Below the pieces are notes generated by a model. The model worked only from the letters and a program-made list of their open reading frames with translations. It was not told the origin of the DNA and did no database searches. The position numbers and the translations under genes are program-made. A stretch of 52,516 bases of DNA from Pseudanabaena biceps PCC 7429 (GTDB taxonomy: Bacteria > Cyanobacteriota > Cyanobacteriia > Pseudanabaenales > Pseudanabaenaceae), in NCBI RefSeq assembly GCF_000332215.1, contig NZ_ALWB01000008.1:1-52516 (forward strand). Direction: 5' to 3'. Positions within the stretch are counted from its first letter, which is position 1. Each line of letters begins with the position of its first letter. This document shows, in pieces, positions 1,130-51,551 of the stretch.

Positions 1130-4057
1130 CTATGGCTTCTTGCTTTTGGTTAAAATGCCAAACTTATGCAGTCTCTGTACGATGCCCTCAAGCAGTTGAG
1201 CATAACTGTGATTAGTCTTTTGCAAGATTTTTTGCACCGAACCGCTCAAGCGAATACATTCATCATCACTTAGATCCCTTGCCGTAATAATAATGATCGG
1301 AATTAAGGGCGTATCATAGCGCAGCCTTAGCAAATGCATAAATTCAAACCCATCAATATTCGGCATCATCAGATCTAGCAAAATTAGTTGCGGTAACTGC
1401 TTAGTCATAATTTCTAAAGCCTCATGTCCATCCTGAGCTTCCACCACCAGACAGTTTTCCTTCTCCAACATTCGCTTTAGCATGGCTCTGACATTGAGGT
1501 CATCTTCCACTACTAATACTGATAACTGAGTCTTTACTTCAGGGCGATACTTGTCAATGGTGGTAATGAGGCGATCGCGATCGATGGGTTTAAATAGATA
1601 ATCATTTGCGCCAATTTCGTACCTCTCATGGGTCTCATCATTGACTGTCAGTAAAATAATGGGAATTCCTGAGGTTAAAGGCTGCGATTTTAGATCCCTT
1701 AGCAACTCCCAACTATGGATAGATGAGGTTTGCATATCGAGAATAATTGCACTAGGAAGGATTTGATGCGCTAACTCCAGCCCATCAGTAATATTTAGAG
1801 ATGAATAAATCCTAACTCCTAGATAGCTCAGATAGGATTGAGTGCATTGATGTAACATCAAATCATCGGCAACGATCAAAATCGATGGATAAGACTCATC
1901 TGAATTGGCAGGATTCAGTACGGAATATTCAGGCAATATGGTTGCCGCCAATTGATCCAGAGGGGGTTTTAACGGTGATTGGGTTAACTTTTCACAATCG
2001 GTAGGTAGACAAATCGTGAAGGTTGATCCTTTGCCTAACTCGCTCTCTACGTGAATATCTCCACCCATCATTTGGCATAGTCTTCTGCTAATGGCAAGCC
2101 CTAAGCCCGTACCGCCATATTGTCTTGTCGTCGAACTGTCGGCTTGATTAAAGGGTTGAAATAGGTTTTGTAAATTCTCTGGACTAATGCCGATGCCAGT
2201 ATCAGTAATTGTGAAATAGAAAATCTCGCCTTGCAGGGAATTGAGACGGTTCACTTTGATGGTAATTTCTCCAGACTTGGTGAATTTACAGGCATTGCTT
2301 AAAATATTTAATAGAACTTGACGCAGTCTTGTCATATCGGTGCGAATGGAACCAAGCTGCCGATCGCATTCGATATGGATTTGATTGCTGTTTTTGCTGA
2401 GTAAGGGTTCGATCGTTTTACAGGTTTCCCATACCAGCATCGGTAAATCGAAGTTGTCATAGTAAATTTCCAATTTACCCGCTTCGATTTTGGTCATGTC
2501 TAAAATATCATTAATCAAATCCAGCAGGTGCTTGCCAGATCGATAGATCTTTTGTAAATCTTCACCAAAATCATCTAATCCTAATAGAGCCGCATCTTCC
2601 TGCAACATCTCGCTATAGCCAATGATCGCATTCAAAGGAGTGCGTAATTCATGGCTCATATTGGCAATAAAGCTACTTTTCGTCCGATTGGCTTCTAAGG
2701 CGCGATCGCGGGCTAGGGACAATTCCTCATTCATCAGCCTTAGGGATTCCTCATCGCGTTTGCGACGCATTAAGGCTCCTAACTGCATTGCGATCGCCCC
2801 AATCAATCCTACTAATTGTTGATCGCCATCATTGGGACTGCGGGTGAAAAAAGCGATGATCGCTACCACATTAGTGTCAGCACTGACGGGAATAGCCAGC
2901 CCCGACTGTAACCCACATTCCAAAGCAGGATATTTACGAAGAAAATTTAATTCCGTTTCTAAAGAGATATCCCAAATCCATTCGGGACGCTGATATTCCC
3001 AAACCCTTCCTGGAAAGCCAATGCCCGAAGGGAATGAAATTCTCTCACTCAGTTGGCGGAATTCTTCCAAGCCTTCAAGGCTACTGTACCAAGCAGGGCT
3101 ACATACCAAAATTTGTTTTTCGTCTCCCGCTGGAACCCAAGCCTCGCCATAGTCCCATCCTGTGAACTGGCAAATTTTCCGCAGGGCAATTTCTAAAGCG
3201 GTTTGAAAATCATTAACCGCACTAATTTCTAACGTTAAGCTCTGCAATAATTGCGATTCTTCCTCGGCTCTCTTTCGCTGAGAGATATCTTGTACGGTTC
3301 CTTCAAAACCAATCAAAACCCCATCAAAATCTCTTACGGCGCGGACGTTTTCTGAAATCCAGATTTTCGTACCATCGCGTCGATAAACCTGTGACTCAAA
3401 ATTAGAAACTGTGTCATGGGTTCGTAAAATATTAATAAATTCTTGACGACGATTGGGATTGACGTAAATTTGGTTGGCGATATTGGTGACGTTATTAATT
3501 AGGGATTCTGAAGAGGGATACCCATAAATTTGCGCCAACATGGGATTCGCAATTAAGTAGCGTCCATCAATCGTTGTCTGAAAAATCCCCTCAACCGCAT
3601 TCTCAAAAATACTCGTATATTTAGCTTCAGCATTTTCTAGATCGTTGCGAAGCTGGGATGTTCTCGATTTTAATAGTTTATGAATTTCCGTTGCCTGTTG
3701 GACGACCTTCGTTAACTCCTCGACCTTGTAGGGCTTAGTAATGTATTGAAAAACCTTTGATTGATTGATTGCCTCGACCAAATCCTTAATATCTGCATGG
3801 GCAGTTAAGATAATCCGTAGAGTATCGGGATACAGCTCAGCAACTTGACTTAAAAACTCCGTGCCAGACATCATCGGCATCCGCTGATCGGAGACAATCA
3901 CGGCGATATCTGGCTCGTTTGCTAAAATTTCTAACGCATCAAATCCATTTTTAGCTCGTAGGACTTGATAGCCTCGATGAAAAATGCGCTGAAGTAGATC
4001 TAAGTTATCTGCTTCATCATCAACAATCAATAATTTGGTTTTTTGTGAGCTATACAT
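1130..4057 (-). CDS. Hybrid sensor histidine kinase with three receiver domains (REC-PAS-GAF-HisKA-HATPase-REC-REC)
   Basis: This is a 975-aa soluble phosphorelay protein. Domains in order: a receiver (residues 5-125; acidic pair D13/D14, phosphoacceptor D57 in IVSDQRMP), a PAS domain with PAC tail (about 145-265), a GAF domain (about 275-440), a HisKA dimerisation domain with phosphorylatable H469 in [20 protein letters not shown], an ATPase domain with the [13 protein letters not shown]2 box, and two more receivers (about 735-850 and 855-965), with phosphoacceptor aspartates in IILDMQ and [16 protein letters not shown]. There is no membrane segment, so the signal is probably cytosolic or comes from a partner through the first receiver. 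The ligands of the PAS and GAF domains cannot be read from sequence. It is a single gene with no adjacent output regulator. Confidence 0.93.
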
Positions 4058-5515: not shown

Positions 5516-5622
5516 TTACAGCAATTATCGATCAAACGAACCACAAAGAAATTTTTGAAAGCGTTGCAAAGCAACGCTTTCAAAAATTTCTTTGGTTTGG
5601 GTTTGAGCGCAATGCGCTGTAA
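5516..5622. repeat. Family D palindromic element, complete
   Basis: The element runs from TTACAGCAATTATCGATC to GCGCTGTAA, so the tips TTACAGC/GCTGTAA are inverted. The centre is a long perfect palindrome (AGAAATTTTTGAAAGCGTTG and complement). Confidence 0.88.
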
Positions 5623-7707: not shown

Positions 7708-7859
7708 TTAACGTCAGTTCGGGTTAAATTGGCAAATTTTCAAAGCCCAAAAGTAAAAGCCTTGCTACGCAAGGCTTTTACTTTTGGGCTTTGAGAAAGG
7801 GTTTGTGTAACAAACCCTTTCTCAAAGCCTACTTCAAATTATCCTGAACTCACGTTAAT
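7708..7859. repeat. Family C double-hairpin element with 17-bp inverted ends
   Basis: The ends ATTAACGTCAGTTCGGG (7708-) and, inverted, ATTAACGTGAGTTCAGG (ending 7859) differ at two positions. Inside are two consecutive perfect hairpins: 7741-7793 (GTAAAAGCCTTGC arms) and 7790-7828 (GAGAAAGGGTTTGT arms). A second, left-truncated copy follows the pentapeptide gene at 20544-20650. The whole unit looks like a non-autonomous mobile element. Confidence 0.8.
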
Positions 7860-8208: not shown

Positions 8209-8312
8209 TATAGCGCTTCGCGCTCAAGTCCAAACCAAGGAAATTTTTGAAAGCGTTGCTTCGCAGCGCTTTCAAAAATTTCCTTGTGGTTCGTTTGCTC
8301 AATAATTGCTGT
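8209..8312. repeat. Family D palindromic element, inverted orientation
   Basis: It is the reverse of the copy at 5516, from a TATAGCGCTTCGCGCTCAAG-type end to AATTGCTGTG. The central palindrome GGAAATTTTTGAAAGCGTTG is nearly perfect, with one mismatch at the base of the loop. Confidence 0.85.
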
Positions 8313-20160: not shown

Positions 20161-20544
20161 ATGACATTACCCTCCCATGCCGCGCTAACTAAGAACGAAC
20201 TACTCGATCGCTATGCTAAAGGCGATCGCAACTTCGAGCAAACCCATCTGCATGACATCGATATGCAGGGAGTCTCGCTGCATGGGATTGACCTTAGCGA
20301 ATCGATCTTAACCCACGTTAATTTGAGCGGCGCAGACCTACGCGGAGCCGATCTCGGCTGGGCAGATCTCAGTCAAGCAAATCTCACAAAAGCCGATTTA
20401 AGAGGAGCAATTTTAACTCGCGCCGATCTCAATCATGCCAATCTAAGCGAAGCCAATCTCCTCAAAGCTGACCTTAGCTTGACGAAACTCGATCATACAA
20501 ATTTAAGTGGAGCAACTATGCCCGATGGTTCCATTCATCCCTAA
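20161..20544 (+). CDS. Pentapeptide-repeat protein
   Basis: The 127-aa protein has an N-terminal helical cap (about 1-30, with LLDRYAKGDRNFEQ) and some 15 consecutive A(D/N)LxX pentapeptides from residue 38 to 122, for example GADLRGADLGWADLSQANLT. These fold as a right-handed quadrilateral beta helix. Small pentapeptide proteins are numerous in cyanobacteria, and function is known only for a few. No signal peptide is seen. The gene runs up to a truncated family C element. Confidence 0.92.
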   Translation: MTLPSHAALTKNELLDRYAKGDRNFEQTHLHDIDMQGVSLHGIDLSESILTHVNLSGADLRGADLGWADLSQANLTKADLRGAILTRADLNHANLSEANLLKADLSLTKLDHTNLSGATMPDGSIHP

Positions 20545-20650
20545 AAAGTAAAAGCCTTGCTAAGCAAGGCTTTTACTTTCGGGCTGTGAGAAAGGGTTTG
20601 CTACGCAAACCCTTTCTCACAGCCCGTTGCAAATCATCCCGAACTCACAC
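20544..20650. repeat. Family C element, left end missing
   Basis: It has the same two hairpins as at 7741-7828 (arms AAAGTAAAAGCCTTGC and GAGAAAGGGTTTG) and the same right-hand tail (AAATCATCCCGAACTCAC). The left inverted end is absent because the element directly follows the pentapeptide gene stop. Confidence 0.8.
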
Positions 20651-26028: not shown

Positions 26029-26243
26029 TAGCTGTCGCCAAGTTTATTGGGACATAAACCCCAAGAATTGACTAGCGGCGCTTCGCGCCGCCAATCAATT
26101 CTTGGGGTTGGATTTGTCCTACAGCAATTATCGATCAAACGAACCACAAGGAAATTTTTGAAAGCTTTGCTTTGCAAAGCTTTCAAAAATTTCCTTGATT
26201 TGGGTTTAAGCGCAATGCGCTGTAAGTCAAGTGACTGTAGCTA
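26029..26243. repeat. Family G element with a nested family D insertion
   Basis: The outer family G ends are at 26029 (TAGCTGTCGCCAAGTTTATT) and 26226-26243 (GTCAAGTGACTGTAGCTA). The family G palindrome is CCCCAAGAATTGACTAGCGG with a nearly perfect complement. A whole family D element (26120-26225) interrupts the right side: the uninterrupted copy at 25071 reads GTCCTAAAGCAAGTGACTG, whereas here GTCCT and GTCAAGTGACTG are separated by the insert. Confidence 0.9.
26120..26225. repeat. Family D palindromic element, nested in family G
   Basis: It runs from TACAGCAATTATCGATCAAA to GCGCAATGCGCTGTAA. The palindrome arms (GGAAATTTTTGAAAGCTTTG) differ from other copies in both arms at the same positions. 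Confidence 0.9.
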
Positions 26244-33442: not shown

Positions 33443-36061
33443 ATGCAACCGACAAATCCTAATCAGTTTACCGAAAAAGCTTGGGCAGCGATCGCAAGGA
33501 CACCCGATGTGGTGAAAGCGTCTCAGCAACAGCAAATTGAACCTGAACATTTGCTCAAAGCCTTACTAGATGAAGAAGGACTAGCAGCAAGTATTTTTAC
33601 TAAAGCAGGGCTAAACATTCAACGTTTGCGCGATCGCACTGACGAGTTTATCAATCGACAGCCCAAGGTTTCCAGTTCTAACAGTAGTGTGTACCTAGGC
33701 AAAAACTTAGATGTACTGCTCGATCGCGCTGAAAAGGAACGCAAAAGTTTTGGGGATGATTTTATTTCCATTGAACATATCCTTTTACCCTATTGTCAAG
33801 ATGAGCGCTTTGGCAAACAGCTCTATCAAGAAATGGGACTGGATGAAACCAAGCTCCGCAATGTTATTCAGCAAGTCCGAGGCAATCAAAAAGTGACCGA
33901 CCAAACTCCCGAAAATAAATATGAAGCATTGACCAAATATGGTCGCGATCTTACAGAATTAGCGCGTGAGGGCAAGCTCGATCCCGTGATTGGTCGCGAT
34001 GATGAAATTCGCCGCACGATCCAGATTTTGTCGCGCCGTACCAAAAATAATCCCGTTTTAATTGGTGAACCTGGGGTCGGCAAAACGGCGATCGCGGAAG
34101 GACTCGCCCAACGGATTTTGAGTGGTGATGTTCCTGAATCTCTCCAAGGTCGCAAGCTGATCGCCCTAGATATGGGTGGACTGATCGCGGGAGCGAAATA
34201 TCGTGGCGAATTTGAAGAAAGACTGAAGGCGGTTCTGAAGGAAGTTACCGAATCAAGCGGTCAATTTATTCTCTTTATCGATGAGATTCATACCGTTGTG
34301 GGAGCGGGTGCGACTCAGGGGGCTATGGATGCTGGTAACTTGTTAAAACCCATGTTGGCAAGGGGGGAGTTGCGTTGTATTGGTGCAACTACCCTCGATG
34401 AATATCGTAAATATATTGAGAAAGATGCCGCACTCGAACGACGGTTTCAACAGGTCTATGTCGATCAGCCCAATGTCGAAGATACGATCTCGATCCTTCG
34501 TGGTCTGCGCGATCGCTATGAATCCCATCACAATGTCAAAATATCCGATACGGCTTTAGTGGCGGCTGCCACCCTTTCTAATCGCTATATTAGCGATCGC
34601 TTTTTGCCTGACAAGGCGATTGACCTCGTGGATGAAGCTGCTGCGAAATTAAAAATGGAAATCACTTCGCAACCTGAAGAGCTTGATGAAATCAATCGCA
34701 AAGTGATTCAACTGGAAATGGAATGTCTTTCTTTGAAGAAGGAAAATGATCGCGAATCCCTCGATCGTCTCGAAAAGTTGAATAAAGAACTGGGTGGATT
34801 GAAAGAAGAACAAACTACCCTCAAAGCGCGATGGGAAGCGGAAAAGCAGGTGATTGACAATCTCGGCAAGATCAAGGAAGACATTGCCCATGTGAATGTG
34901 GAAATCCAACAAGCCGAACGTGATTACGATCTGAGCAAGGCTGCCGAACTGAAATATGGCAAACTGACCGACCTCCAACGTCAGTTGGAAATTGCCGAGG
35001 TCAATTTAGAGGAAGCGAAAAATTCTGGGCGATCGCTACTTCGTCAGGAAGTTACCGAAGAGGATATTGCCGAAATCATTTCCAAGTGGTCGGGTATCCC
35101 CGTGAGCAAGCTCGTAGAATCTGAGAAGGAAAAGCTTCTCCAACTAGAAAATGTGCTTCATGATCGCGTCGTCGGTCAAGAAGAAGCAGTTACGGCGATC
35201 GCCGATGCTATTCAGCGATCGCGGGCAGGACTGGCGGATCCCAACCGTCCGATCGCTAGTTTTATTTTCTTAGGACCAACGGGAGTTGGTAAAACCGAAC
35301 TCGCCAAAGCTCTTGCCGCCTATCTCTTTGATACGGAAGAGTCGATGGTGCGGATCGATATGTCTGAGTATATGGAGAAACACAGCGTTTCTCGCTTGGT
35401 GGGCGCACCTCCTGGCTACGTCGGTTATGAGGAAGGTGGTCAATTGACCGAAGCTGTGCGTCGTCGCCCCTATGCTGTCATTCTCTTTGATGAAATTGAG
35501 AAAGCGCATCCCGATGTCTTTAACATCATGCTACAAATTCTTGATGATGGAAGGGTTACTGATTCCCAAGGTCGCACTGTAGACTTTAAGAATGCCATTA
35601 TCATCATGACCAGTAATGTTGGCTCTCAGTATATTCTCGATATTGCTGGCGATGACTCCCGCTATGAAGAAATGCGCGAGCGGGTTATGGAATCAATGCG
35701 AGCGAGCTTCCGTCCTGAGTTCCTCAACCGCATTGATGAAATCGTGATCTTCCATGCGCTTCGTCGCGATGAATTGCGACGGATTGTCAAGCTACAGGTT
35801 CAGCGCTTAGAAAAACGTTTAAGCGATCGTCGCATGACTCTAAAAATTGCCGATGTTGCCTTGGATTTTCTTGCTGAAGTTGGCTATGATCCTGTTTATG
35901 GGGCGCGTCCACTCAAGCGGATCATTCAGCGTCAACTGGAAACGAAAATTGCGAAGGGTATTCTACGAGGCGAATTTACGGATGGAGATACAATTTTTGT
36001 CGATATCGAGAACGAACGGCTTGTCTTCAAGCGTCTTTCTGCAAATCTAGTACCAATTTAA
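33443..36061 (+). CDS. clpB: Disaggregase chaperone ClpB (Hsp100)
   Basis: The 872-aa ClpB resolubilises aggregated proteins together with DnaK. Parts in order: a Clp N domain (about 1-145), AAA1 with Walker A GEPGVGKT (about residue 208) and Walker [10 protein letters not shown], a coiled-coil M domain (about 410-525) with DNA-K contact heptads, and AAA2 with Walker [10 protein letters not shown] (about residue 612), Walker [12 protein letters not shown] and the sensor [12 protein letters not shown]. The pore loops [12 protein letters not shown] and YVGYEEGG are intact. No ClpP-binding IGL loop is seen, consistent with ClpB rather than ClpC. Cyanobacteria often have two ClpB proteins; this is one of them. 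A family A repeat follows. Confidence 0.97.
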
Positions 36062-36067
36062 ATATGA

Positions 36068-36160
36068 CTAAGTAGTTTGGCATAATTAAAAACCAAAATC
36101 AGAGAGCATACCGCCCGCTACGCGGGCGGTATGCTCTTCTAGGTTATGCCTAGCTATTTC
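36068..36160. repeat. Family A palindromic element
   Basis: CTAAGTAGTTTGGCATAATT and TTATGCCTAGCTATTTC flank the GAGAGCATACCGCCCGC palindrome (loop TAC). The right end truncates the YhcG/DUF1016 remnant. Confidence 0.88.
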
Positions 36161-36310
36161 AAGGTAGCGATCGCTAATATCTAGAAAGTCTAGGATGTAG
36201 GGATCTTTTAACAGTAAATCGGGTGATATTTGCTTGTTTGCGCTATTTCTTGGATATTTGGAGTAATCTGTGGCGGATTGCGATCGGCTTCGTTCATAGT
36301 GCTTCTCCAT
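36159..36310 (-). pseudogene. Remnant of a YhcG/DUF1016-family nuclease gene
   Basis: The minus-strand frame contains SPDLLLKDPYILDFLDISDR, which resembles the LxKDPYxxDFL block that precedes the PDDEXK domain in YhcG (DUF1016) proteins. Only some 25 codons of it remain. The upstream codons (36240-36310) are of unclear origin. Downstream the frame runs straight into the family A repeat and encodes repeat sequence, so the protein is broken. The call rests on motif resemblance only. Confidence 0.5.
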
Positions 36311-36347
36311 TTTGAGAATAAGTATTAGGGCAGGTATATGGCGATCG

Positions 36348-36720
36348 CTAGGCGTTGCATTTCATCCTTGAATTGGCGAAATCAAGTCCTTTTTCTTCAC
36401 TGCAACTAAAACCTTTAAAAATAGGTACACGATCATTTTCAAGTAATTTTGCTAATTTCAATCGTTTAAAATTTTCTTGGAACAAATCTAAAAGTTCTAA
36501 TTCATGATTCTAAGTACAGGACAAAAAACTTGAAACCCTCTCCCAGCAAGGATTTGAGGCGAAAAGCTTTAAAGCCTTACCTAGTAACGGTTTCGATGGA
36601 TTTTGGCGCTCTACTTTTGATTTTTTGTCCTGTACTAAGTTCATGATTATTAAATATTAATTCTAAGGTTTCTTCTATCCCATCACCATTTTGGATTACT
36701 TTGATAATTACTTTTTTCAT
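36348..36720 (-). pseudogene. Small ORF interrupted by a 130-bp MITE
   Basis: Starting at ATG 36720 on the minus strand the frame reads MKKVIIKVIQNGDGIEETLE and meets the MITE at 36639. If the 130-bp element and one 9-bp target duplication are removed, the frame continues without a shift to TAG at 36350, giving exactly 78 codons (77 aa plus stop), with an acidic, helix-rich C terminus. With the insert the frame instead stops inside the element, after about 20 extra residues. I do not recognise the intact protein. The perfect restoration of frame supports a real gene before insertion. Confidence 0.75.
36510..36639. mobile_element. 130-bp MITE with 19-bp inverted ends and 9-bp target duplication
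   Basis: The left end CTAAGTACAGGACAAAAAA (36510-36528) and the right end, inverted, CTTAGTACAGGACAAAAAA (36621-36639) differ at one base. The direct repeat TTCATGATT flanks the element on both sides (36501-36509 and 36640-36648). No coding capacity is present, so a related full-length insertion sequence would have to supply the transposase. The inner part does not form a long hairpin. No second copy lies in this window. Confidence 0.9.
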
Positions 36721-36812
36721 GTCTAAAATTATCTTTAGGTTAAATATTTTATAAATGTATCAATTATTCTAGAATATAAACGATTGATTATCACAGAATT
36801 AACAATTAAACA

Positions 36813-37691
36813 TTATTTTCTAGGCTTACCTCTACTATTCTTAGGTCGCCTAAATTTATATTTGCCATGCTCTTTTTCTGCTTCTTCTACAGATTCGTAG
36901 CACCATTTAGGCTCGATCCCCTCATACTCTGTATCAGAAGGCTTCCAAATAATTCCATCAAACCCATCTTCTTTTTTGTCTATGGTTACTTTAATTGGAT
37001 AACCATCCCTACATTTTTTATTGTATGGAGGACATCCACCTGTAAATTGTGCTTTTCTACGCTGCTCATTTAACCACTTTTCTTGTCTAGCCTTTAGTTC
37101 TGCTGCTTTTTTTAAACTTTCTTGATAATCTTCCCATTCCTTCCTCTTGAACTCAGCTTCTTCGTATCTCTTTCTCTCTTTGATCTTATTATTATGTGTG
37201 ACTTTAGTAACAGCTATATCATGAGTTTGATTGATATTATCTAAGGCTAATTGAAGTTTGGAGATTTGCTCAACTAACTTTGGATTTTCATTAAAAATTT
37301 TTTGTACTTCATGAATTTGTTTTAATCGTTGTTCCAAGTCATCTCCTGAAAGTCTTAATATTTCTTTGAGGTTATATTCAGATATGAACTGGATAGTTGA
37401 CGCAAATTGATTGTTTGCCGTAAAGTTTTCAGAATTCATATATACAGGTGCTAACAAAGAAAACATTCCTGCTGCAATAGGACTCAAAATGACTACTATT
37501 AGTAATAATGGAACTTGCCACCATAGCAAGTAACCAGAAGCACATATTGCAGTAGTAACTAAAATAAGTTCAAACCAAGCTTTTAAACCTTCTTCAACTG
37601 AGAATATACCTATGGTAAATAGCTTTACTAAGAGTTCAAGCAACAAATATCTTAGGGATAAAGGTGTTTGAGGAAAGTCTCGAAAAGTCAT
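36813..37691 (-). CDS. Membrane protein with coiled coil and sunset-like C-terminal domain
   Basis: This 292-aa protein of unknown function has an N-terminal leader followed by two close hydrophobic helices (about residues 40-80, including LLWWQVPLLLIVVILSPIAA), a long charged helical and probable coiled-coil region (about 105-215, with many Lys, Glu and Gln), and a C-terminal domain (about 218-285) with paired Cys (GGCPPYNKKC) and the end block WCYESVEEAEKEHGKYKFRRP. This last block resembles sunset-type domains, small Cys-containing modules found attached to nucleases and surface proteins (ECFATEAEAEAAGYRRS pattern), but it is diverged. It is 19 bp downstream of a second unknown membrane gene; the two are likely one operon. 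Codon usage is more AT-rich than the flanks. Confidence 0.7.
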   Translation of the reverse strand: MTFRDFPQTPLSLRYLLLELLVKLFTIGIFSVEEGLKAWFELILVTTAICASGYLLWWQVPLLLIVVILSPIAAGMFSLLAPVYMNSENFTANNQFASTIQFISEYNLKEILRLSGDDLEQRLKQIHEVQKIFNENPKLVEQISKLQLALDNINQTHDIAVTKVTHNNKIKERKRYEEAEFKRKEWEDYQESLKKAAELKARQEKWLNEQRRKAQFTGGCPPYNKKCRDGYPIKVTIDKKEDGFDGIIWKPSDTEYEGIEPKWCYESVEEAEKEHGKYKFRRPKNSRGKPRK

Positions 37692-45400: not shown

Positions 45401-45507
45401 TTACAGCACTTTGCGCTCAAACCCAAAACAAGAAACTTTTTGAAAGTGTTGCGAAGCAACACTTTCAAAAAGTTTCTTGTGGTTCTTTTGATCGAAAATT
45501 ACTGTAA
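45401..45507. repeat. Family D palindromic element, inverted orientation
   Basis: It runs from TTACAGCACTTTGCGCTCAA to AATTACTGTAA. The palindrome CAAGAAACTTTTTGAAAGTG with its complement differs from other copies at several positions in both arms at once. Confidence 0.9.
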
Positions 45508-51444: not shown

Positions 51445-51551
51445 TTACAGCAATTACCACTCAAACGAACCACAAGGAAATTTTTGAAAGCGTTGCTTCG
51501 CAACGCTTTCAAAAATTTCCTTGCTTTGGGTTTGAGCGCGAAGCGCTGTAA
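51445..51551. repeat. Family D element nested beside A/B ends
   Basis: TTACAGCAATTACCACTCAA to GCGCGAAGCGCTGTAA. Immediately left is a family A-type end (AAGTATCTAAGCATAAGTAA) and immediately right a family B element, so D lies at the junction between two repeat ends. Confidence 0.88.

Follow-up and report, generated by a model that had tools for sequence, protein, structure and literature searches.

Most MITEs are seen as internal-deletion derivatives, and their interiors are commonly regarded as meaningless leftovers of dead insertion sequences (IS). In cyanobacteria, MITEs of Anabaena sp. 90 are described in the excerpted text of PMC3542288 as small elements with TIRs and inner inverted repeats, some of them located inside genes. 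They are termed 'type II' there, and are reported to lack a parent IS in that genome (PMC3542288).

We analysed a 52,516-nt stretch of DNA (the window; contig C8) from the genome of Pseudanabaena biceps, which comprises 5.47 Mb in 464 contigs. The window contains a non-coding element of 130 bp, and we estimate a probability of about 80% that this is a MITE which, being non-autonomous, is mobilised by an IS4-family transposase encoded elsewhere in the same genome, and that its conserved core resembles that of a second MITE family.

The 130-bp element and its IS4-family parent

The element occupies positions 36510-36639 and is assigned no strand. Its TIRs, CTAAGTACAGGACAAAAAA at 36510-36528 (plus strand) and CTTAGTACAGGACAAAAAA at 36621-36639 (minus strand), are 19 nt long, lie 92 nt apart and pair at 18 of 19 positions (95% complementary). 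A perfect 9-bp target duplication (TSD), TTCATGATT, is present as a direct repeat at 36501-36509 and 36640-36648, both on the plus strand. Because the two copies abut the ends of the element, its length is exactly 130 bp. When the genome was searched with the end pattern, allowing two mismatches, six matches were obtained, two of which belong to this element, compared to none for the reversed pattern. Ends of this type were found on three other contigs, as a complete IS on C105 and as single ends on C131 and C319. In other genomes the ends recur with similar interiors and with 9-bp duplications of their own, which is beyond chance. The element is thus short and non-coding, with inverted ends, a TSD, copies in related genomes and ends in common with an autonomous IS, which supports the original prediction of a cleanly bounded MITE.

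The IS on C105 (positions 2001-3142) is complete, with a length of 1142 bp and a 353-aa transposase that belongs to the IS4 family (NCBIfam NF033591, E 4.5e-80, 269 bits against a cut-off of 152). IS4-family transposases have the signature Y(2)R(3)E(6)K, and this was read by eye in the translation as YAKRWGIETLFGCFK. The IS is flanked by its own 9-bp duplication, AAACTCTCA. Its outer 18 bp are identical to the MITE ends, left to left and right to right, and one asymmetric base is also common to both (CTAAG on the left, CTTAG on the right). The original prediction had left the parent unidentified and proposed a genome search for a full-length IS with these ends; that search located it in the same genome. 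Complete IS4 copies numbered eight among 13 loci examined, with a perfect 9-bp TSD in six and none found in two. Relatives of the C105 transposase were detected in 18 of 26 Pseudanabaena genomes (E<=1e-10, fragments counted), and an IS annotated as IS4 family on a plasmid of P. galeata CCNP1313 is 87% identical to the C105 IS. The C105 transposase would recognise the common 18-bp ends of the MITE and move it to a new site, leaving a 9-bp TSD; the ends and the duplication are directly visible, and the movement in trans is what we infer.

Matches to the MITE at E<=0.001 were found in at least 22 of 97 related genomes, with up to nine candidates scored in each genome; many of these matches are to IS ends only. 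Among the matches listed, positions 1-130 were covered only in Pseudanabaena, at 69-87% identity. An 84,980-species collection was scanned for 14 bp of each end, separated by 83-113, which revealed 47 loci, 14 of them cyanobacterial (Pseudanabaena, seven; Phormidesmis, three; Chlorogloea, Acaryochloris, Microcystis and a cyanobacterial MAG, one each) and 33 in Saprospiraceae. In 26 aligned cyanobacterial rows the element measures 130 bp in 21, 129 bp in four and 125 bp in one (L116); the near-constant length is a property of these 26 rows, since damaged or partial relatives (for example L035-L038) were left out of the alignment. Two of the rows, L032 and L106, represent the same locus; the alignment therefore holds 25 distinct copies, of which 18 have a perfect 9-bp TSD, one has an 8-bp TSD and six have none that was found. 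The MITE is also present in two P. galeata plasmid records, and searches of viral contigs and phages gave no matches.

Interiors were compared using the 21 rows of 130 bp. Those of five copies, from Phormidesmis (two), Chlorogloea, Acaryochloris and Microcystis, have mean ungapped identities of 48-63% to 16 Pseudanabaena interiors, compared to 26-28% for shuffles, and for each of the five copies the observed identity was reached by none of 2000 shuffles. The Acaryochloris copy, which was absent from the training set of the interior profile, scored 24.3 bits with it. The Microcystis copy is the least secure member because it scored below 8 bits with the profile, leaving the ungapped comparison as its basis. 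The relationship of the L116 interior is not clear (24 of 300 shuffles reached its value), and the five Saprospiraceae interiors compared were not clearly related to those of Pseudanabaena. Collectively, these results make it very likely that the window MITE belongs to a cyanobacterial family and depends on IS4.

In two other Pseudanabaena genomes, identical copies occupy different sites (L028/L047 and L030/L048), which indicates that the family moved there recently and suggests that the MITE can be mobilised in trans. Recent transposition had also been proposed for the window copy itself. Its intact ends and TSD agree with this; the copy is, on the other hand, the only full one in its genome, and none of the 20 other 130-bp copies with which it was compared is separated from it by fewer than 17 differences in 130 positions.

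Core similarity between two MITE families with unrelated ends

The 93-bp core of the MITE (36529-36621, plus strand) is alike across cyanobacterial families. To compare it independently of the ends, a sequence-only profile of the interior, R1, from which the TIRs were excluded, was run over 388 genomes. The window core scored 77.8 bits (E 2.7e-21) in its own genome, a value that is high by construction because R1 was built partly from the window copy. Besides MITEs with IS4-type ends, R1 detected weak matches in other families. The 77 of 388 genomes listed are not usable as a distribution, because many of the weak matches are partial and the scan was run without a reversed-model control.

Twelve loci were inspected, and six (L177, L179, L181, L182, L184 and L186) lie in elements with clearly different ends, of which TAGACCTGTTGGGTAATAA is typical. 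Such ends were less clear in L180 and L185. L183 is a copy with IS4-type ends, L172 is a damaged one, and neither type was assigned to L178 and L187. The elements with different ends constitute a second MITE family of ~139 bp, whose IS5-type ends are unrelated to the IS4-type ends. To avoid circularity, members of this family were then picked by their ends alone, which gave 18 elements in 13 of the 388 genomes; the reversed pattern gave none. Sixteen of the 18 were scored against the core profile. Scores under about 10 bits mean little because perfect hairpins elsewhere in the window reach up to 9.5 bits. Fifteen of the 16 elements exceeded 10 bits (mean 18.3, lowest 4.9), compared to 0/16 reversed elements, 0/32 Saprospiraceae MITEs, 0/400 random genomic sequences and 0/320 shuffles. 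The best control, a shuffle, scored 7.9 bits. Sequences without an nhmmer report were scored -5, and L112, an element at a locus end, was excluded from the 33 Saprospiraceae loci.

Background scores were obtained from three sets of loci. In 49 loci selected by IS30 ends or IS4 transposase, and thus independently of the core (158 kb), two places reached 10 bits or more (best 10.1). The 14 named cyanobacterial loci (104 kb) had one such place outside MITEs, at 12.0 bits, and none reached 8 bits in the 33 Saprospiraceae loci (239 kb). Because background places of 10 bits or more are this rare, the end-selected elements stand well above background. Similarity of the core between two MITE families with unrelated ends is thus present against controls at the level of sequence, and the two families' cores appear to have descended from a common source.

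Seven of the 13 genomes with the second family are Pseudanabaena, and five (G010, G016, G022, G024 and G025) also have full-length copies with IS4-type ends. The second family was absent from the plasmids searched, and viral contigs gave no matches. An IS with ends of the second type, 1014 bp in length, is found on G001:C166. Its 299-aa transposase matches Pfam DDE_Tnp_4 (E 3.4e-23, 82.5 bits against a cut-off of 24.8) and scores 73.9 bits with NCBIfam IS5 model NF033581, below the cut-off of 140. Because it falls below the NCBIfam IS5 cut-offs, we call this second parent IS5-type and not a member of IS5. In the genome of the window, a single IS5-type end lies at positions 1316-1334 of L255 (G000:C72), beside what appears by eye to be the tail of its transposase.

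The core would set the MITE apart from a simple deletion derivative. A scan of 10 IS (eight complete IS4 copies, the IS5-type IS and an IS30) gave a sole match of 1.9 bits, in one IS4 copy, and a core-like interior is also present in the second family. The alternative is that the element is an ordinary internal-deletion MITE, with a core that is the remnant of an unseen IS4-family IS and a likeness to the second family that is convergence. This would fit the last 30 bp of the MITE, which are 91% identical to the IS4-family IS at its right end, and the span of the end-selected matches: ~47-64 of the 93 model positions, about two thirds, are covered by the best match in 12 of the 16 elements, and nearly all in the other four (L190, L192, L194 and L200). 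The scores of the window hairpins are also in keeping with it. However, the core is missing from all eight complete IS4 copies, and the profile is matched neither by reversed palindromes or shuffles nor by other MITEs with IS4-type ends. In L177, L179 and L181, which were first found via the core, the alignments run across both of its palindromic units and contain 10-11 additional bases around model positions 30-34. We consider the deletion alternative unlikely. Genomes beyond those searched could contain an IS4 relative that carries the core, and convergence of palindromic DNA could explain part of the similarity.

The nature of the core

The core consists of two imperfect palindromic units, which together make four arms that alternate in orientation and are related to AAAATCnnTGAAAC; the arms are of the form TGAAA/TTTCA. 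We asked what such a core might be. It is improbable that MITEs carry it as a structured RNA that is transcribed, or as a pair of transcription terminators. RNA folding gives z-scores of -4.3 and -5.3 on the two strands, values that are partly owed to the TIRs, and the units are flanked by A-rich and T-rich stretches. However, arm pairing is no better than column composition predicts in three alignments, in which single double changes occur. RNAalifold revealed little covariation and no convincing fold inside the core, Rfam gave no match at E<=1 in seven loci, and a terminator scan of 36000-37000 listed none inside the MITE. On the pairing, covariation and Rfam results a conserved RNA fold was rejected. 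Conserved arm sequence without detectable pairing is a better fit to a DNA-binding site than to an RNA fold.

Two coding explanations were also rejected. A minus-strand frame is open through the window copy of the MITE and mostly open in the closest Pseudanabaena copies, and a conserved peptide was discarded on account of stops in L027, L032, L034, L097, L108, L121 and L124, among others. The core is not the C-terminus of a transposase, as the core profile finds nothing there; the FLSCT ending of both the MITE frame and the transposase is explained by the left TIR, which is coding sequence in the IS.

From the sequences, we infer that the core may be a DNA module, for example a predicted binding site for a host protein, that has been fitted with different transposase ends. 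Its presence in two MITE families, its absence from the parents tested and its approximately single length in several cyanobacterial genera would indicate either selection on the interior or swapping of ends. A more specific proposal, which we offer tentatively and hold to be possible rather than probable, is that the core is a selfish or useful module whose four arms are bound by a host or element protein. Such a module would have been combined with at least two unrelated end types (IS4- and IS5-type), and would have persisted across cyanobacterial families, at near-constant length in the family with IS4-type ends. If this is true, MITEs would be vehicles for a selected core and not mere deletion debris.

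Other palindromic sequences were observed in the window. Near-identical perfect hairpins of the form AAGGAAATTTTTGAAAGCGTTGC-TTC-GCAACGCTTTCAAAAATTTCCTT, and variants of it, are located at 51470-51525, 26145-26200, 8235-8290, 5542-5596 and 45428-45492, outside frames of 120 aa or more. A second sort, starting with AAAAGTAAAAGCCTTGC, is located at 7738-7795 and 20540-20585. Both sorts are dispersed repeats that are REP-like or terminator-like.

The insertion site and comparison with known elements

Removal of the MITE and one copy of the TSD restores a single minus-strand frame of 77 aa plus stop, from 36720 to 36348, and it had been predicted that the MITE splits a gene. The upstream piece (36640-36720, minus strand) encodes 27 aa including the TSD, and the downstream piece (36348-36509, minus strand) encodes 53 aa plus stop. 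Pfam gave no match for either. No clear ribosome-binding site was seen by eye ahead of the ATG. No convincing homologue of the downstream piece was found in 97 related genomes, where three foreign matches (E 0.04-0.07) were judged to be chance: L077 because it is antisense to a glycosyltransferase-like frame, L075 because it lies at a contig end, and L076, which contains a stop. The search of protein homologues that had been proposed for the restored frame was made with both pieces joined, and found no convincing relative in 388 genomes of the class or in 72,556 plasmid records; a match in G307 (E 0.0097) contains two stops and was likewise judged to be chance.

The end of the frame overlaps an IS30-family end, present as a solo remnant at 36343-36379 with no strand assigned, in which positions 36354-36379 form a 26-bp TIR. 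This segment aligns with the outermost 37 bp of an IS in a relative (L060) that belongs to the IS30 family, with 100% identity in the TIR portion. The L060 element has a TIR with 26 of 26 pairs and a 327-aa transposase (NF033563, 262.7 bits against a cut-off of 80). Because of this match, the C-terminal residues of the frame and its stop are IS30 sequence; they comprise the last nine residues (ANSRMKCNA), part of the tenth and the stop. The relative locus L067 aligns to the window only up to 36345, around the start of the IS30 end, and L055 has the IS30 end in common with the window through 36379. For the left-flank DNA outside the IS30 end, matches were weak and short (28-46 bp in G064, G010, G076 and G020; E 9e-5 to 1e-3).

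The MITE is very unlikely to have inactivated a real small gene: the empty site does hold one 77-aa frame, and a frame of at least this length appeared in only 32 of 2000 dinucleotide shuffles (1.6%) of the 374-nt empty site when frames on either strand were counted, but its end and stop are those of an IS30 element, and neither a convincing homologue nor a Pfam family was found in the searches above. The frame probably has no function, or is a gene that IS30 had cut earlier. The MITE would thus have inserted into DNA that was already degraded by IS30, and the frame it interrupts was most likely no working gene.

Further features lie nearby. Window positions 36154-36345 have DNA relatives in L055 and L067. 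A 74-aa frame at 36086-36310 (minus strand) has a weak match to YhcG_C (E 0.056, below the cut-off) and is perhaps a gene remnant. At 36103-36137, shortly after an 872-aa frame that looks ClpB-like by eye and ends at 36061, lies a perfect palindrome of 16 bp. Its stem is GC-rich, and on the minus strand the palindrome resembles a terminator.

Among known elements, the MITE is like the IS4-family IS of C105 in having the same TIR and a 9-bp TSD, and differs from it in having no transposase and in having a core that was not found in the IS. The named element nearest to this IS in annotation is ISSysp2 of Picosynechococcus, with a 66% match over 46-47% of the C105 IS length; the comparison was made with two places annotated as ISSysp2. 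The Saprospiraceae MITEs with IS4-type ends have the same 14 bp at both ends and a similar length. In contrast, their interiors are unrelated, with the core matched in 0 of 32. Many of them (L078-L083 and others), of ~122-133 bp, have different palindromic interiors and fall into several subfamilies.

The Anabaena sp. 90 MITEs resemble the window MITE in being small elements with TIRs, a likeness at the level of their description in the excerpted text (PMC3542288). Nezha (Zhou, Tran and Xu 2008) is also a cyanobacterial MITE and was compared by name only, from mentions in excerpts of PMC10969869 and PMC3733652; it might be one of the two MITE families described here. No report of a core common to different MITE families was found in excerpts of the open-licence PMC literature, which included PMC10969869, PMC3733652, PMC2246112 and PMC3542288. 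Relative to these known systems, the new point is the core, which the window MITE appears to have in common with a MITE family with IS5-type ends.
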